Virus record (IMG/VR): IMGVR_UViG_3300010885_017475
Coordinates: 1 to 29,899 of that record
Direction: 5' to 3' (one strand)
DNA: 29,899 bases
Source: a virus
The stretch's first letter is position 1; each line of letters starts with the position of its first letter. This document shows, in pieces, positions 961-27,985 of this stretch. A program made the position numbers and the translations under genes. The notes under the pieces were generated by a model that saw only the letters and a program-made list of their open reading frames with translations, had not been told where the DNA came from and did not search any database.

Positions 961-1707
961 TTACAACTCCCGACGTATTCCTAATTTAGGTAAATATGTT
1001 TTCCATACAGCAAGTACTTTATCTTTCTCAGCTGGAGTAAGTGTTTCGTTGTTTACCCAATGATCTAAATAATCATGTATTATTTTTTTAAATGGTGTTT
1101 TGCTTTTCTTTGCTTTAAGATACATACCATGAATCATTGCTGGTATCTCTTTTTTAAGTAAAAAATAGTTAATAGGTGGTTTAACGCCTGATTCTATTTT
1201 ACTTCGCATTGATTGGTCTGATGGCAAATATTTTGATTGTTTAAGATTCCAACCAGATTGTGTTATATGTTCAATTTCGTGACGAAGTGTATCTCGCATT
1301 TGCATTGCAATTTCCTCAAGTATAGTAGGATATTCTGCTGGATCTATTTCGAAACGAACTTCTATTAAAGGCAAATCATCTGAATATTTCTTTGTATCAT
1401 TGTATGCATCACCACCATATTTAAAGTCATTGAAATCTTCTTTCCACATTACTTTCAATGTTAAATAGAATTCCAATGGAATTTGTTCATTTTCAACTTC
1501 TTCAAAAAAGATATGTGATTGTTCTTCTGATTCAATTGTAGGAGCTGTTTCTGATTTAGTATAATAAATCTTCTCTCCTGCAAAGTAGCCATCAGGATCT
1601 TTTGTGGCAGCATAACTGTCTTTAACAACTGCTAACATTCTTCTAGACAACGCAGTTATTAAACTATCGTATCGGCCTTCTATTATAAGCATTTTTAGTG
1701 ATATCAT
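961..1707 (-). CDS. Zincin-like putative metallopeptidase with capsid-targeting-like N-terminus
   Basis: 248 residues. H143-E144-I-E-H147 is an HExxH zinc-protease signature inside LRHEIEHITQ, and E187 in KKEIPAMIHG is a plausible third zinc ligand of gluzincin type. The first ten residues (MISLKMLIIE, then G) match the pattern in the lysozyme at 3313-4287 and the unknown at 4284-4619. They also fit the T4 prohead-protease rule of hydrophobic-x-Glu followed by a small residue. I infer a protein packed in the capsid and trimmed after E10, perhaps injected to act on host or capsid proteins. The start at 1707 is chosen because it preserves this peptide. The HNH gene ends 13 bases before it. No signal peptide. 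A structural role without catalysis cannot be excluded. Confidence 0.75.
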   Translation of the reverse strand: MISLKMLIIEGRYDSLITALSRRMLAVVKDSYAATKDPDGYFAGEKIYYTKSETAPTIESEEQSHIFFEEVENEQIPLEFYLTLKVMWKEDFNDFKYGGDAYNDTKKYSDDLPLIEVRFEIDPAEYPTILEEIAMQMRDTLRHEIEHITQSGWNLKQSKYLPSDQSMRSKIESGVKPPINYFLLKKEIPAMIHGMYLKAKKSKTPFKKIIHDYLDHWVNNETLTPAEKDKVLAVWKTYLPKLGIRREL

Positions 1708-2666: not shown

Positions 2667-2843
2667 TTATTTTAGTTTTTCAGTTAATATAACTATTTTT
2701 CTCCAAGCATCTTCTGCTTTGTATATATGTATTGCTGCTGCTTCAAATTTTTTAACATTTCTAGCATTTTCTGCTCGTTTTAAATTTCTGTGAAATGTTG
2801 CATGTAATATGCCAATTTTAAAACGATAAAACCATTTAAACAT
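2667..2843 (-). CDS. Small basic hypothetical protein (58 aa)
   Basis: I choose the ATG at 2843, which overlaps the end of clpS by 8 bases. An upstream ATG at 2870 would overlap it by 35 bases and add MLQYQNIRV. The protein starts MFKWFYRFKIGIL and continues as a strongly basic, amphipathic helix with many Lys, Arg and Ala. It could associate with membrane or nucleic acid, but no family is recognised. It is tightly coupled to clpS upstream and the 128-residue gene downstream. Moderately sure it is a gene, not sure of the start. Confidence 0.6.
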   Translation of the reverse strand: MFKWFYRFKIGILHATFHRNLKRAENARNVKKFEAAAIHIYKAEDAWRKIVILTEKLK

Positions 2844-3105
2844 AACTCTTATATTTTGATATTGTAACAACTAACCCGTTGTCTTTTAACTCTTCACATA
2901 CCTCTTGACACTCTTCGTGCGTATCAACAAATATCGAACATTTGCTACAGTTATGTACCATGGTAGCACATTGTACTGCTTGTAGGTAGTTATGGTTGCA
3001 AATCTCCATTAAATTATCAATAACGTGATCAAACGTATTCACGTTATCATTATGCAGAATTACTTCCCATTTACCACGTTTATTTGTTGATTGTTTTTTC
3101 GACAT
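2836..3105 (-). CDS. clpS: ClpS-like ATP-dependent protease adaptor
   Basis: 89 residues from the ATG at 3105; earlier in-frame ATGs at 3129 and 3150 overlap the upstream gene more. ClpS docks on the N-domain of ClpA/ClpC unfoldases and presents proteins with N-degrons. A short Lys-rich N-terminal arm leads into the core KWEVILHNDNVNTFDHVID. N19, D20 and H51 have the same spacing as the N-degron pocket residues N34, D35 and H66 of E. coli ClpS. LMEICNHNYLQAVQCATMVH resembles Bacteroidota ClpS proteins. Almost the whole protein is adaptor core. The upstream neighbour has a UVR-like motif, also found in ClpC-type unfoldases. It probably redirects host Clp proteolysis during infection. The family is confident and the role is inferred. 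Confidence 0.9.
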   Translation of the reverse strand: MSKKQSTNKRGKWEVILHNDNVNTFDHVIDNLMEICNHNYLQAVQCATMVHNCSKCSIFVDTHEECQEVCEELKDNGLVVTISKYKSYV

Positions 3106-3277
3106 CTCTGATGATCGCGCATTGTTCATAAAATTCATTTTTTTCGGCAAAATCCATGCACTGTTTCAGAAAAATTAGTTTTCTCTCAGAATCCCAATTA
3201 GGAGGCCAAGACCAATCTTCGGTTGCCATGCAATTAATCGACCTGATTAATAACTCGTTTATAAAATTATCTTCCAT
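3080..3277 (-). CDS. Small protein with UVR-like motif (65 aa)
   Basis: 65 residues. Residues 36-62 (LKQCMDFAEKNEF, then YEQCAIIRDVEK) resemble the UVR helical hairpin of UvrB, UvrC, McsA and ClpC: a hydrophobic first helix, a short acidic turn, then a second helix with the I-R-D core. The N-terminal half contains a Trp-rich WSWPPNW. UVR motifs mediate protein-protein contacts. It overlaps clpS by 26 bases, so translation of the two is probably coupled. The start at 3277 follows TATAATAGGTT. The UVR assignment is from pattern only and could be a chance helical hairpin. Confidence 0.65.
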   Translation of the reverse strand: MEDNFINELLIRSINCMATEDWSWPPNWDSERKLIFLKQCMDFAEKNEFYEQCAIIRDVEKTINK

Positions 3278-3312: not shown

Positions 3313-4287
3313 TTATTTAAATTTTATTTTGTCGCCAGGTTTTATACTGTCAGCTTGTAAGTCCTGGTTGAATCCCCTGAGGTCATCTAATGTATATCCA
3401 TTTGCTAATGCTATGGATAAAAACGTTTCTCCGGGTTTCACGGTATGAACTGGACTATTGTTTAGTTTAATTACATCGCTACGTACCCAACCAGTATTAT
3501 CACCTGTAACATATAACCATGTTTTTCCATCTTGACCTTTTTTAGCAGTTGTAACTTTACCAATTGCATTTGGCCAATATACTTTAGTTTCTAAATTATC
3601 AAAGAAACCATTGTCTACATAATCTTCTGATCTAACATTTGTGTAACCATATCCTGGTTTTGGATAAACTATTTTATTAACATACACTGATGGATCTAAT
3701 GGTTTATTAGATACCGGTGTTGTTGTTTGTTGAGTTTTTTTAGTATTACGTTCTTTTGCATACTTATCAAATGCATCTGCATTAGATTTCATTCTAGTTA
3801 CAACACCTCGTAAACTACCCGGATTAGTATAATTAGGATGTTGTAAATACATCGTTGATACGTTGCTCCATTGTCCCTTATTAATTGCCTCAATTGTATT
3901 AGGACCTAAATCGCCGCGATATACTGCATTTAATATTGCTTCTTGTACATATTTTGGATATGCATTAAACTTAGGAACCAATCGCTTTGCTTTAGATTCG
4001 TGTTCTTTAATACCTTTAGTTAACAATTGTTCTGCAGTAGTCGGCGTGATTTTCATTCCTGGTTTTAATGTAGGCAATACTGTAGCAGTAGTACCATATC
4101 CAATTGTTAATGTTCCTTTTAAAGGTGCACCTGGTTTGTGTGGTACTGTTGGATTCTCATCATCATATGCTAAATGATTTCCTCGTGCATCAATCGGACC
4201 TGGTCCTTCCCATGATTTGACCTTTTCACGGAAGTTATCATCTAATGCTAATATAGATTCAGTTATTAAAGATTTTAAACGTATCAT
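3313..4287 (-). CDS. GH24-type lysozyme with SH3-like and LysM domains and capsid-targeting-like N-terminus
   Basis: 324 residues. A GH24 muramidase domain spans about 18-180. E27 in KSWEGP, D42 in LAYDDE and T61 in LTIGYGTT fit the Glu-Asp-Thr triad of T4 lysozyme, with a longer loop between D42 and T61. An SH3-like domain follows (about 205-277, ending TGWVRSDVIKL). A LysM peptidoglycan-binding module closes the protein (about 281-324, HTVKPGETFLSIA to KPGDKIKFK). Residues 1-10 (MIRLKSLITE, then S) match a T4-style capsid-targeting sequence and replace any secretion signal. The start overlaps the upstream stop as ATGA. It may be a virion-packed muramidase acting at entry rather than, or besides, an endolysin. 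The separate amidase at 7669 could do lysis. Confidence 0.87.
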   Translation of the reverse strand: MIRLKSLITESILALDDNFREKVKSWEGPGPIDARGNHLAYDDENPTVPHKPGAPLKGTLTIGYGTTATVLPTLKPGMKITPTTAEQLLTKGIKEHESKAKRLVPKFNAYPKYVQEAILNAVYRGDLGPNTIEAINKGQWSNVSTMYLQHPNYTNPGSLRGVVTRMKSNADAFDKYAKERNTKKTQQTTTPVSNKPLDPSVYVNKIVYPKPGYGYTNVRSEDYVDNGFFDNLETKVYWPNAIGKVTTAKKGQDGKTWLYVTGDNTGWVRSDVIKLNNSPVHTVKPGETFLSIALANGYTLDDLRGFNQDLQADSIKPGDKIKFK

Positions 4288-4619
4288 TTTTTATTTTCTC
4301 GTATAATTAATTCACCTAATACTTCTAATCTACCAACTTCTCGTTGAAACTCAATTTGAGTCATTGAAGTTGATATTTTCTTATAAGTTGCATCAAACTC
4401 TTTTTTAGCAGCATCTAAATCAAATTTACCGGCAGCTGCTTTCTTATAATAAGGAAGTTTAACTTTAAAGTGGTGCCATGTTAATAATGCTAAGCCACCT
4501 TTTTTCTTTGCATTGTCTACAATCTTTTCTGCACCAGCTTCACGCGTATCAGCAAATGATTCGAATGTATCTGGTTTTTTTGTGGTTGCTTCAAATAGCA
4601 GTGACTTTAACTTCATCAT
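4284..4619 (-). CDS. Unknown protein with capsid-targeting-like N-terminus (111 aa)
   Basis: 111 residues beginning MMKLKSLLFE then A, the same ten-residue pattern as the lysozyme and zincin-like proteins, with predicted cleavage after E10. The mature part is basic and helical (KKKGGLALLTWHHFKVKLPYY, then repeated Lys/Ala), ending in an amphipathic helix (EFQREVGRLEVLGELIIRENKK). I recognise no enzyme. T4 internal proteins are likewise small, basic and packed around DNA, so an internal protein or injected effector is the best guess. It abuts the 142-residue gene at 4619 as TAATG and overlaps the lysozyme start by 4 bases. Confidence 0.75.
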   Translation of the reverse strand: MMKLKSLLFEATTKKPDTFESFADTREAGAEKIVDNAKKKGGLALLTWHHFKVKLPYYKKAAAGKFDLDAAKKEFDATYKKISTSMTQIEFQREVGRLEVLGELIIRENKK

Positions 4620-6043: not shown

Positions 6044-6228
6044 TATTTTTTATCCTTGTTTCTATTTTTATATGGCCACATATTTGCCGTTTTATCATTT
6101 AACCATTCCGCTCTATCATCACAACCACAATCTTCATCTAATATTTTAGCAATTGCTTTTGCTAATTGATCTAACCCAGTAGCTGCAGTTATTTTTTTAA
6201 CATCATCGCCTAATCCTTTACTTTGCAT
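6043..6228 (-). CDS. Small conserved phage protein with EDCGCDDR motif (61 aa)
   Basis: 61 residues: MQSKGLGDDVKKITAATGLD, an amphipathic helix (QLAKAIAKIL), then the signature E32-D-C-G-C-D-D-R39 and AEWLN. This GLGD...KITxATG...DCGCxxR...LN arrangement resembles a small protein I associate with flavobacterial and marine phages near tail genes; this is recalled, not searched. C34 and C36 may bind metal or form a redox pair. A GGGAG site 5 bases upstream supports the start. It overlaps the nucleotidyltransferase gene by 11 bases and the repeat protein by 1. Confidence 0.78.
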   Translation of the reverse strand: MQSKGLGDDVKKITAATGLDQLAKAIAKILDEDCGCDDRAEWLNDKTANMWPYKNRNKDKK

Positions 6229-7291
6229 ATCTACTCCCGTTTTTTAAAGCATTTTGTAATTGCATTATTATTGTTTGATATTGAGCTGTATGTGGTATTT
6301 CAAATACATTGCGGCCTGGATATTGATAATGTTCGTCTGGCTTCATCATTTGACAATGTCCCGTATCATCAATTCCTAATACATCATGTGGAACATTTTG
6401 CATTGTAATACGGCCATCTGTAGTTGGTATCATTGTGCATTTACCCGGATGATTCCATTGTCCCATCGGGTCAACTACTCCACCCGTTTTCATTATAACT
6501 GCACTCCAACCGGTTGAGTTTAAAAGACTTTGTTTTGTGATATGAGGTATTAAACGATTAAGAACATCTTCCATTACACTATCTTCTTGTTCATTTAATA
6601 CTTGTTCTAATGCAAGTTTACCCAAAGATACCTTTTTTTGTAATTGTTTTAAACGTTCGATATATCCTCTATTACGAAGATGTTTAAATGCCATATTTTC
6701 CACTGAATACTCGCCTTCGGCATCTAAACCTGTTTGACGAAGTCTTTGCAAACGCATTAATATGTTTTTTAGTTTAAATTCAATTTGAGGATCTGATTCT
6801 TTGAGTGAATCAATTTCATATTCATATGGATCTGCTTTTTGTTCTATTGCATCATCATCAATTGATATTGTTTCAGCAGATGGTTTGTTTATCCATTTAC
6901 CATGTAATACTGAATAAATACCAACCGTAGAATTCAATACATCATTAGAATCCTGTGCATATAATTCTACAGGCAATCCTTTATAAGTTAATGGATAATT
7001 AACATTCCATATACTCTTTTTTGCATGCATGTAATTTTGAACTAACAACATGTTATCATTGATAGCAGAATAATTAATTACAACATGCAAATCAATATCA
7101 CTGTGTTCCGTCCAATTGTAATTAGCACTACTACCTATTATAATAACATCTAAAATATCAGTGTCTACTTCTAAAAAATCATAAAATTCTTTTGCGATTT
7201 TCATAAACCCAACTCGTAATTTTGGTTGTAATTGATCGCCATCCCATAATTTAGGATTCAGTGTGCTATGTGTTTGATATTCTTGGATCAT
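6218..7291 (-). CDS. Nucleotidyltransferase-domain protein
   Basis: 357 residues. Residues 48-71 carry a polymerase-beta-like nucleotidyltransferase signature: G53-S54 in IIIGSSANYNW, then S-D65-I-D67-L-H-V. That is the G-S-x(n)-D-x-D pattern of minimal nucleotidyltransferases. VELYAQD (about 109) may supply the third acidic residue. A helical region follows (about 165-235, Leu/Arg/Lys rich). The C-terminal 100 residues form a separate domain with GVVDPMGQWNHPGKCTMIP and GHCQMMKPDEHYQYPGR. The substrate is unknown. The position among structural and lysis genes is shared with similar proteins in marine phages, as I recall. The start at 7291 gives a typical N-terminus (LNPKLWDGDQLQPKLR). Confidence 0.82.
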   Translation of the reverse strand: MIQEYQTHSTLNPKLWDGDQLQPKLRVGFMKIAKEFYDFLEVDTDILDVIIIGSSANYNWTEHSDIDLHVVINYSAINDNMLLVQNYMHAKKSIWNVNYPLTYKGLPVELYAQDSNDVLNSTVGIYSVLHGKWINKPSAETISIDDDAIEQKADPYEYEIDSLKESDPQIEFKLKNILMRLQRLRQTGLDAEGEYSVENMAFKHLRNRGYIERLKQLQKKVSLGKLALEQVLNEQEDSVMEDVLNRLIPHITKQSLLNSTGWSAVIMKTGGVVDPMGQWNHPGKCTMIPTTDGRITMQNVPHDVLGIDDTGHCQMMKPDEHYQYPGRNVFEIPHTAQYQTIIMQLQNALKNGSRYAK

Positions 7292-22299: not shown

Positions 22300-23247
22300 T
22301 TATTTAATATTCAAAAAGGTACCACTGCCACCTGCCATTGTGGTAGGTAACTGTCCATCCCATTTCTCAATTTTCTTAAATTCAATATAGTTAGTAGTTA
22401 ACTCTTTTTGCTTTAATCTAATTGCTAATGCTTGAGCTGATGCGTTAATAATTGTTTCGGCTGAATCTGCTTTTGCTACCGCAACTTTTCTTTCACCATC
22501 TGCCTTAGCTGCAATTGCTTGTTGCTTAGATGCCTCAGCTTGTTGCACTGATTTTGTTTTTGCAATAATTGCTTCTTGTAATGCTTCTGGTGGAACAATA
22601 TTGGATCTCATTTGTGACACAACAAACCATTTTGATAATCTTATATTACATTCAGCAACAATAGCAGCTTCAAATAATTGTCTATGTCCAAATATTGAAT
22701 CAACTTCCCATGTATTTGCTACGTCATTCACTGCCCCTACAATTGCAGTTTTTAGCCAACCTTGTTCAATTGTAGCAATATCCAATCTTAAATTTTGGAA
22801 CATATCACCAACTGCAGTAGGCTTTAATGAGTAGTTGAATGAAGGTTTAATGTCAGCTGGGAAACCACCATCAGTAATTACTTGTTGCTGATCAAACTCA
22901 ATATGTTGCTGGAAGGTAGGGAACTCATACACATTTTCTGTCCAACTATTATACATAACATAACCTGTTTTGTATTCATAATTACTAACACCCCTAGAGT
23001 CACCAGTTAAATTAACTTTGATACCAACATGGCCGGCATCGACTCTTTCAATTGCATATGGCTGAAATGCACTAATACCAATTCCAATAATCACTAGGGC
23101 AGCTCCTTTGATACCCGTTCGCATACCTGAATTTCTTTCAGCATCGCCTTCTTTACTATAACTAGCTTCGCTGTATCTACGAGCTCCTTTAAAAATTGAT
23201 ATCGCACCGATAATCAAAAATGGCAATAAAATAATTACACTAATCAT
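22300..23247 (-). CDS. SPFH/prohibitin-family membrane protein
   Basis: 315 residues. Two N-terminal hydrophobic segments (about 3-20 and 47-65) precede an SPFH domain beginning YAIERVDAGHVGIKVNLTGD, with VYEFPTFQQHIEFDQQQVIT and VNDVANTWEVDSIFGHRQLF inside. An Ala/Lys/Gln-rich coiled coil (about 228-285, QAEASKQQAIAAKADGERK) follows. SPFH proteins form rings or cages at membranes and can control the FtsH protease. The last gene before the terminator, overlapping a small membrane protein by 8 bases. In a phage it could shape the membrane, guard FtsH targets or support replication. Family sure, role unknown. Confidence 0.9.
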   Translation of the reverse strand: MISVIILLPFLIIGAISIFKGARRYSEASYSKEGDAERNSGMRTGIKGAALVIIGIGISAFQPYAIERVDAGHVGIKVNLTGDSRGVSNYEYKTGYVMYNSWTENVYEFPTFQQHIEFDQQQVITDGGFPADIKPSFNYSLKPTAVGDMFQNLRLDIATIEQGWLKTAIVGAVNDVANTWEVDSIFGHRQLFEAAIVAECNIRLSKWFVVSQMRSNIVPPEALQEAIIAKTKSVQQAEASKQQAIAAKADGERKVAVAKADSAETIINASAQALAIRLKQKELTTNYIEFKKIEKWDGQLPTTMAGGSGTFLNIK

Positions 23248-26734: not shown

Positions 26735-27985
26735 TTAAAATTTAAAGAATGAATTGAATTTATTTGCATCGGTTGTAGAAATACTATCTCCACCGAATTT
26801 CTTATATGTTTTTTTGTATGTTGAATACACGTGCATTGCATTGTCTGGATCTGCGAACATATCATGTAATGATACAATAACATTGAATAATTCTGCTGGA
26901 ATTGCTGTTTCTAACAATTCAACATGACTATCTACAATCTTATCAACATCTTTAGCCATTTGACAATATAAATGCGTATTGTGAACTACCATACGTGGCA
27001 TACCTTCTTGTGAATATCGATCTAACCCGCTTTGTGTCTGTCCACCTAAATATTCATATGTAAAATCTCTACATGCAGGACAATCTATACTACAAGGGAC
27101 ATGTTTTGTTTTATCAATTGATACAGTGTCTTTACCTTGTTTAATATGAGTTTTTCTTCTATACTCGGCATTCTTAGGGAAATACAATTCCGTAAAAGTT
27201 TGCGTTTTATAGTTAGTCGAATGCAAATAAGTACCATATACTGGATATTGACCTGGAGATGAAGAATCTGTAGATAATTGTACACGTCCATCTGTCAAAT
27301 CATTCAATAACTTTTGCAATGTCGATAAAATGAAGAAATCTGATATTTTAGATATACCTAATAAGTGAATAAATTGTACATGGGGTTTTTCAAACTCTCT
27401 TTCTTGAAGCATAAGTGCCACAACATACATAAAATCGACTAAGCGTTTAGGACCACCAATACACCAACCATTAAATGCGAAGTCTTTGAATTTGTGATAC
27501 CAAATATTGTATTCTTCACTATAAGTACCCTGAATCACATTTAAAAACTTAGTTTTACCTGATTGATGTGTTTCAAACCATTTAAAATTGTCAAATGAAA
27601 TATCCATCGAATCTTGGAATCGATTCTCAAATGTAACACGCGGAGGAATATCTAAATTTGCTGCAACATCTGAATTGGCTTCTAACCAATGAAAGATCTT
27701 TTCACGAATGGTAGTATCCCATTTAAGTGCTCCTGTGGCAATCTGGAATCCTCCAGAATCTCCAAATACTAATACATCATCATCCAACCCAATTTGTTGA
27801 CGGAAATCCATTTTCTTGTAATGGTGACCTGCTGTAATCAAGAAATATGGATGTCTCCATTCTTCTGGGTATTCCTTTCCAAAGAATCTCATAGTAGTGT
27901 CATCACTAAACTTCGAGTCCTTCTTAAAGGCAGATACCATTGATCCTGCAGATAATGATGGATAGTATATAAACTTTTTACTCAT
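26735..27985 (-). CDS. TGT-like enzyme, probable DpdA-type DNA 7-deazaguanine transglycosylase
   Basis: 416 residues. The TGT superfamily core is seen: VFGDSGGFQ with D76, NVIQGTYSEEYN (about 149-160), FNGWCIGGPKR (171-181) and FIHLLGISKISDF. RVQLSTDSSSPGQ puts D240 at the nucleophile position. A zinc site follows (C298, C302, C305, H335 or H338). Bacterial tRNA TGT has MP-T-R after the nucleophile; here it is S-S-S-P-G-Q, as in phage and defence DpdA proteins. DpdA swaps guanine in DNA for a 7-deazaguanine. It lies between the clamp and a glycosyltransferase. A tRNA substrate or archaeosine-type role is less likely. The superfamily is confident and DNA as substrate is inferred. Confidence 0.87.
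   Translation of the reverse strand: MSKKFIYYPSLSAGSMVSAFKKDSKFSDDTTMRFFGKEYPEEWRHPYFLITAGHHYKKMDFRQQIGLDDDVLVFGDSGGFQIATGALKWDTTIREKIFHWLEANSDVAANLDIPPRVTFENRFQDSMDISFDNFKWFETHQSGKTKFLNVIQGTYSEEYNIWYHKFKDFAFNGWCIGGPKRLVDFMYVVALMLQEREFEKPHVQFIHLLGISKISDFFILSTLQKLLNDLTDGRVQLSTDSSSPGQYPVYGTYLHSTNYKTQTFTELYFPKNAEYRRKTHIKQGKDTVSIDKTKHVPCSIDCPACRDFTYEYLGGQTQSGLDRYSQEGMPRMVVHNTHLYCQMAKDVDKIVDSHVELLETAIPAELFNVIVSLHDMFADPDNAMHVYSTYKKTYKKFGGDSISTTDANKFNSFFKF

Follow-up and report, generated by a model that had tools for sequence, protein, structure and literature searches.

A phage ClpS with an overlapping UVR-like partner gene: a candidate two-protein adaptor for host ClpC

Introduction

Why a phage should carry a gene for a ClpS adaptor, and on which Clp protease such an adaptor would act, are the questions raised by a locus in a 29,899-base virus record of IMG/VR, the whole of which was analysed and is called the window here. 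The record contains T4-type clamp-loader genes and a dUTPase, and among the related records, which range from 86 to 169 kb, the T4-type capsid protein Gp23 was found in four and the prohead protease in three of the eight searched. Elsewhere in the window, all on the minus strand, lie a large cluster of glycosyltransferase genes and nucleotide-sugar genes, here in a T4-type phage (8646-20567), a Band 7/SPFH domain protein (22300-23247; Pfam, 59.8 bits), a protein with a weak nucleotidyltransferase (Pol beta-like) N-terminal part and a strong match to the uncharacterised phrog_36119 (6218-7291), and a protein with a weak, sub-cut-off likeness to queuine tRNA-ribosyltransferase (26735-27985).

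Phage ClpS proteins are already known from jumbo phages (e.g. AMM43882.1; Iyer et al. 2021, PMC7824862), where they are proposed to direct targets to the host Clp machinery. The passage on them mentions no partner gene, and the phages described here differ in being T4-type, with records of up to 160-170 kb. Phage control of ClpC is likewise known: Gp53 of phage SPO1 (PMC6873191) is a 25-kDa adaptor-like protein that acts on host ClpC, which is not described as a ClpS and is set apart from the present protein by description only. Among the literature titles and abstracts searched, a scope mostly outside subscription journals, none announces a ClpS in this phage group or a paired UVR-like gene.

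Results

The phage ClpS and its N-degron pocket

The original prediction had read positions 2836-3105 as a ClpS gene, and this identity was confirmed. The product matches Pfam PF02617 with 60.7 bits (E 1.2e-16) against a cut-off of 23, and its confident AlphaFold2 model aligns to solved ClpS structures in Foldseek with query-normalised TM scores of 0.72-0.84. The frame runs on the minus strand, which had been left unstated, with its ATG at 3105 (Table 1). Because the equivalog cut-offs of NCBIfam were not reached (best 38 versus 107 bits), the phage ClpS has to be regarded as divergent. It evolves under purifying selection, with dN/dS values of 0.07-0.27 in nine close pairs. Matches to pentatricopeptide proteins in a phmmer search of the PDB were rejected as repeat artefacts.

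As alternative starts, ATGs in frame with ClpS were considered as far as 30-34 codons ahead of the pocket Asn; they are unlikely to be used as a rule, since several relatives have an in-frame stop just 5' of an MSKK-type ClpS start, which places the pocket Asn at position 14-23 at most, and since the conserved upstream letters fit the frame of the neighbouring gene. Upstream starts may be used in three members (L047, L049 and L054).

An ungapped alignment places the three pocket residues N19, D20 and H51 at N34, D35 and H66 of E. coli ClpS, as had been predicted, and they are conserved across the clade: among 38 phage ClpS sequences with a partner gene, D20 is present in every one, residue 19 is Asn in 34 and Asp in four, and H51 is His in 36. 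The mean entropy of the pocket columns is 0.52, versus 1.57 for the remaining columns (p 4e-4). In its fold, its N-degron pocket and its HND-x-x-NTFDHVI-type motif, the protein resembles bacterial and especially Bacteroidota ClpS, but it differs from them by a short basic N-terminal extension (NTE), a switched surface at residues 54-70 and an obligate overlapping partner. The initial picture was incomplete in that it missed both this partner gene and the altered NTE.

Table 1. Positions of the ClpS gene, its partner gene and their main features in the window
Feature	Position	Strand	Evidence
ClpS adaptor, 89 aa	2836..3105	-	Pfam PF02617; AlphaFold2 pLDDT 90.7; Foldseek to solved ClpS
UVR-like partner gene, 65 aa, with a 26-nt overlap at the start of ClpS	3080..3277	-	77/77 pairing; no known family; AlphaFold2
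Gene overlap, with the ClpS start codon within the Asp58-Val59 codons (GAT GTC) of the partner	3080..3105	-	47 pairs
Helical hairpin with UVR likeness in the partner, residues 29-64	3086..3193	-	hhalign and shuffled controls
Short basic NTE of ClpS, residues 1-12, MSKKQSTNKRGK	3070..3105	-	position of pocket Asn; net charge
N-degron pocket residues N19, D20	3046..3051	-	aligned to E. coli N34, D35; D20 invariant
N-degron pocket residue H51	2953..2955	-	aligned to E. coli H66; His in 36/38
Helix 3 docking positions E64, Q67, V69 (E. coli E79, E82, K84)	2899..2916	-	alignment

A partner gene that overlaps the start of ClpS

The gene upstream of ClpS is conserved at this place in close relatives, and its 65-residue product finds no family in Pfam, PHROG or NCBIfam. 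Pairing was assessed in a non-circular way by searching the viral collection with the partner alone and keeping 80 loci, many of them on the contigs of the ClpS scan. ClpS follows directly downstream in all 77 assessable loci, and the other three contigs end at this point. In each of the 47 pairs examined, 20-62 nt are shared between the two genes, always in the same frame relation, and in most of these the ATG of ClpS falls within an Asp-Val codon pair of the partner. The near-invariance of this Asp-Val is therefore partly forced by the start codon inside it. Such an overlapping architecture suggests translational coupling of the two genes.

The partner is itself under purifying selection (dN/dS 0.07-0.42). 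INPHARED contained neither a DNA match to the region nor a match to the partner, and the gene was absent from 396 Flavobacteriales genomes (0/396) in a search whose positive control matched in the window record.

UVR likeness of the partner

The C-terminal half of the partner (...FLKQCMDFAEKNEFYEQCAIIRDVEKTI) resembles the UVR motifs of host proteins of ClpC, UvrB and approx. 210-residue size. An hhalign comparison with 14 host UVR motifs gave a probability of 83.5% (E 8e-6), while 60 column-shuffled controls did not exceed 2.2%, and when 971 phage ORFs were ranked with an HMM of host UVR motifs built here, partners took the first 16 places. The AlphaFold2 model (pLDDT 88.2) comprises three helices, two of which (30-46 and 50-64) form the hairpin. 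The motif lies for the most part ahead of the gene overlap, so that the likeness does not rest solely on the overlap-constrained Asp. The Pfam UVR model (PF02151) did not match any of 26 partners at E values up to 1, and Foldseek returned no significant structural match, with ClpC and McsA among the weak, non-significant ones; for these reasons the partner is called UVR-like rather than a UVR member. Sequence and fold searches of the PDB yielded nothing significant by which it could be named.

The pairing of ClpS with a UVR-type protein recalls the chloroplast ClpC adaptor ClpF-ClpS1 (PMC7966870). The phage partner differs from ClpF in that it has 65 residues only, is UVR-like by profile alone and carries neither a YccV nor any other Pfam domain, so that the combination of UVR and YccV domains that marks a ClpF-type protein is missing. 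Moreover, the two genes of the putative phage adaptor overlap and are phage-borne.

A short, basic N-terminal extension

The pocket Asn is located at residue 19 (median) in partner-bearing phages versus 27 in hosts, and the median net charge of the NTE is +5 versus -3, the phage-host p-values being descriptive because shared ancestry is ignored. Almost all partner-bearing ClpS have an NTE of 4-16 residues, versus a usually acidic NTE of at least 19 residues in hosts. In phages without a partner (L077-L089), the pocket Asn lies at approx. residue 27 with a charge near neutral, apart from two short exceptions. The shift in NTE length and charge tracks the presence of the partner; L033, which has Phe for Trp in the motif, was counted as partner-less in this comparison and yet carries the partner. 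The most extreme case is the ClpS of L065, whose core is preceded by no more than some four residues, with a stop four codons upstream. At this locus (3619-4069), where ClpS is nearly without an NTE, the partner is prolonged by a C-terminal tail (...TNTDGEVSSSVE), and similar tails are found in L026, L028, L032, L038, L042 and L064.

In E. coli, the NTE is gripped by the pore loops of ClpA, with residues 16-26 in the D1 ring and residues 2-15 in the D2 ring, and delivery is inhibited if NTE entry is blocked (PMC9663308). The long delivery NTE of E. coli (residues 1-25) has no equivalent in the phage protein, whose NTE of approx. 12 residues would reach only the first ring, D1, if the geometry of E. 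coli ClpA is applied. Because the NTE is poorly conserved among ClpS orthologs (PMC9663308), its shortening bears on the delivery mechanism and not on family membership.

These features could indicate that the phage ClpS and its partner act as a decoy or inhibitor, which would occupy ClpC and/or N-degron proteins without delivering them, so that phage proteins would be protected and the turnover of N-degron proteins in the host would be blocked. This is a possibility that we consider unlikely, though deserving attention. It would agree with the short NTE, with the need for NTE entry during delivery in E. coli (PMC9663308), given the probable restriction of the phage NTE to D1, and with the inhibition of ClpC1 unfolding by ClpS in Mycobacterium tuberculosis (PMC6274998). 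However, it is for ClpA and not for Bacteroidota ClpC that delivery is known to require the NTE, the three members with upstream ATGs may have a longer NTE, and an obligate, conserved partner together with a strictly kept pocket exceeds what a simple plug would need.

An altered surface next to a constrained pocket

Residues E79, E82 and K84 of E. coli ClpS dock to the N-domain of the Clp unfoldase (PMC12493166). Position 79 is acidic in most of the partner-bearing clade, and the ClpS of the window retains this residue as E64. The K84 position is Val, Ile, Ala or Met in the clade, so that Clp docking may be altered; position 84 varies in hosts, too. In addition, surface positions that are fixed in hosts are switched in the whole clade: K59 to Phe or Tyr, G61 to Asp and L66 to Cys, while P68 is lost. 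The altered surface spans residues 54-70, while the pocket remains constrained.

The altered surface would also fit a reuse of the ClpS fold for a role outside the Clp system, for instance in binding linked to the virion or to replication, in which the partner would be a subunit. The pair adjoins a lysozyme gene with a T4-type processed N-terminus, which would fit this reading, but few parts of the protein are as constrained as the N-degron pocket, and ClpS lacks a processing-type N-terminus; we regard it as the least probable of the explanations weighed here. The opposite extreme, in which the phage ClpS would top up host ClpS-dependent turnover during infection and the partner would be incidental, appears very unlikely. 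The phage pocket is indeed nearly identical to that of hosts, and jumbo-phage ClpS has been interpreted as bringing targets to host ClpAP (PMC7824862). Strict pairing (77/77) and overlap (47/47), the switches at K59, G61, L66 and P68 and the changed NTE are nevertheless difficult to reconcile with a mere supplement.

Relatives, phylogeny and probable host

One viral scan recovered ClpS relatives on 113 IMG/VR contigs and a cellular scan recovered 362 relatives, with scan patterns that were derived from phage sequences and may favour the phage group. By title, the best 80 of the 362 cellular relatives (42-55% identity) belong to Bacteroidota, mostly Flavobacteriales, with a single exception from Saccharibacteria. 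INPHARED gave ClpS matches in only three uncultured phage records of approx. 635-642 kb.

The phylogeny of phage and host ClpS that the original prediction had proposed was calculated from core columns, excluding the NTE. The partner-bearing phage proteins form one clade (99/98; 200/200 bootstrap trees) on its own long branch, in a tree of few columns with E. coli as the sole and very distant outgroup, which does not fix the exact place of the clade among Bacteroidota. The Bacteroidota style of the sequence that had been noted originally is borne out by its affinity (79 of the best 80 cellular relatives). A recent capture from a host is ruled out by the branch length and by an identity of approx. 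50%; an old capture is plausible.

Shine-Dalgarno-like sites are few in the window (11 of 48 genes, raw count). One phage without the partner gene, L170 (the record of L088), encodes ClpS and its own ClpP, for which the best NCBIfam match is PRK14514, a Bacteroidota-type model. The affinity of ClpS, this ClpP and the scarcity of Shine-Dalgarno-like sites together make a Bacteroidota host likely. A link to a host via phage contigs binned in Flavobacteriales genomes was sought in vain (0/396).

The original prediction had named a host without a ClpS-dependent Clp unfoldase as the case that would speak against it. Clp_N unfoldases were present in all ten ClpS-containing Bacteroidota genomes tested, Bacteroidota being the likely host group, and in all ten a UVR match was located inside an open frame of ClpC size (844-884 aa).

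Clp machinery and N-degron formation in the phages

Phage-encoded Clp machinery is ruled out in the sampled records: 16 phage records contained no Clp_N unfoldase, and those with the partner gene contained no ClpP. Any action on a Clp protease would therefore need that of the host. An N-degron-making enzyme was not found either, as Leu/Phe transferase (PF03588) was absent from eight records.

Three proteins encoded on the minus strand of the window (961-1707, 3313-4287 and 4284-4619) begin with MISLKMLIIE/G, MIRLKSLITE/S and MMKLKSLLFE/A, where the slash follows the Glu. These N-termini look like T4 capsid-targeting propeptides that are cut by the prohead protease. One of these proteins is a lysozyme with LysM adjoining the ClpS-partner pair, which may be packaged in the phage head, and many relatives encode the same N-terminus in front of the pair. 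Prohead cleavage takes place inside the capsid, and the N-degrons of ClpS are Leu, Phe, Tyr and Trp. The suggestion that Glu-cutting phage proteases supply N-degrons is therefore unsupported, because the predicted new N-termini are Gly, Ser and Ala and would arise within the capsid; the missing transferase points in the same direction.

Discussion

Taken together, the intact pocket, the 77/77 pairing and 47/47 overlap, the UVR likeness, the single clade and the NTE shift point to ClpS and its UVR-like partner as a two-protein adaptor for a ClpC-type Clp protease of the host, a reading that we consider about evenly balanced between right and wrong. It is also favoured by the lack of a phage unfoldase and ClpP, by the UVR-bearing, ClpC-size host proteins, and by several precedents. 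Chloroplast ClpF, a UVR protein, and ClpS1 act jointly on ClpC (PMC7966870), ClpC1-TRAP strongly enriches several UVR proteins in chloroplasts (PMC8889267), the inhibition of ClpC1 by ClpS in M. tuberculosis needs residues around the Uvr motif of ClpC1 (PMC6274998), and phage SPO1 has an adaptor-like protein for ClpC, Gp53 (PMC6873191). The negative Pfam UVR and Foldseek results, the Asp-Val that is partly forced by the ClpS start codon, the replaced K84 and the 0/396 Flavobacteriales genomes count against an adaptor, and the partner may merely travel with ClpS while having a function of another kind.

In the proposed mechanism, the UVR-like partner would contact ClpS, the middle domain of host ClpC with its UVR motif, or both, in analogy to ClpF and ClpS1, and would supply contacts that are normally given by the NTE. 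The phage complex would displace host ClpS and alter the set of N-degron proteins that is delivered. Host proteins would then most likely be steered to degradation, with sequestration, which would starve the ClpC protease, as the alternative outcome. It is plausible that the phage ClpS, as originally suggested, outcompetes the host adaptor or redirects targets. A more specific version, which we put forward tentatively and at somewhat less than an even chance, is an obligate two-protein ClpC adaptor of T4-type phages, probably of Bacteroidota, in which the partner would replace the missing NTE, mimic the ClpC middle domain and rewrite the host N-degron code, as a viral parallel to ClpF-ClpS1.

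If the two-protein adaptor is real, the host N-degron protease would be seized by a dedicated two-part phage adaptor, and phage takeover would be tied to regulated proteolysis. The pair would also offer a minimal system for the action of ClpS on ClpC, which is known mainly from studies on ClpA and on chloroplasts. Beyond this, a new conserved phage protein family is named, whose role can be tested.
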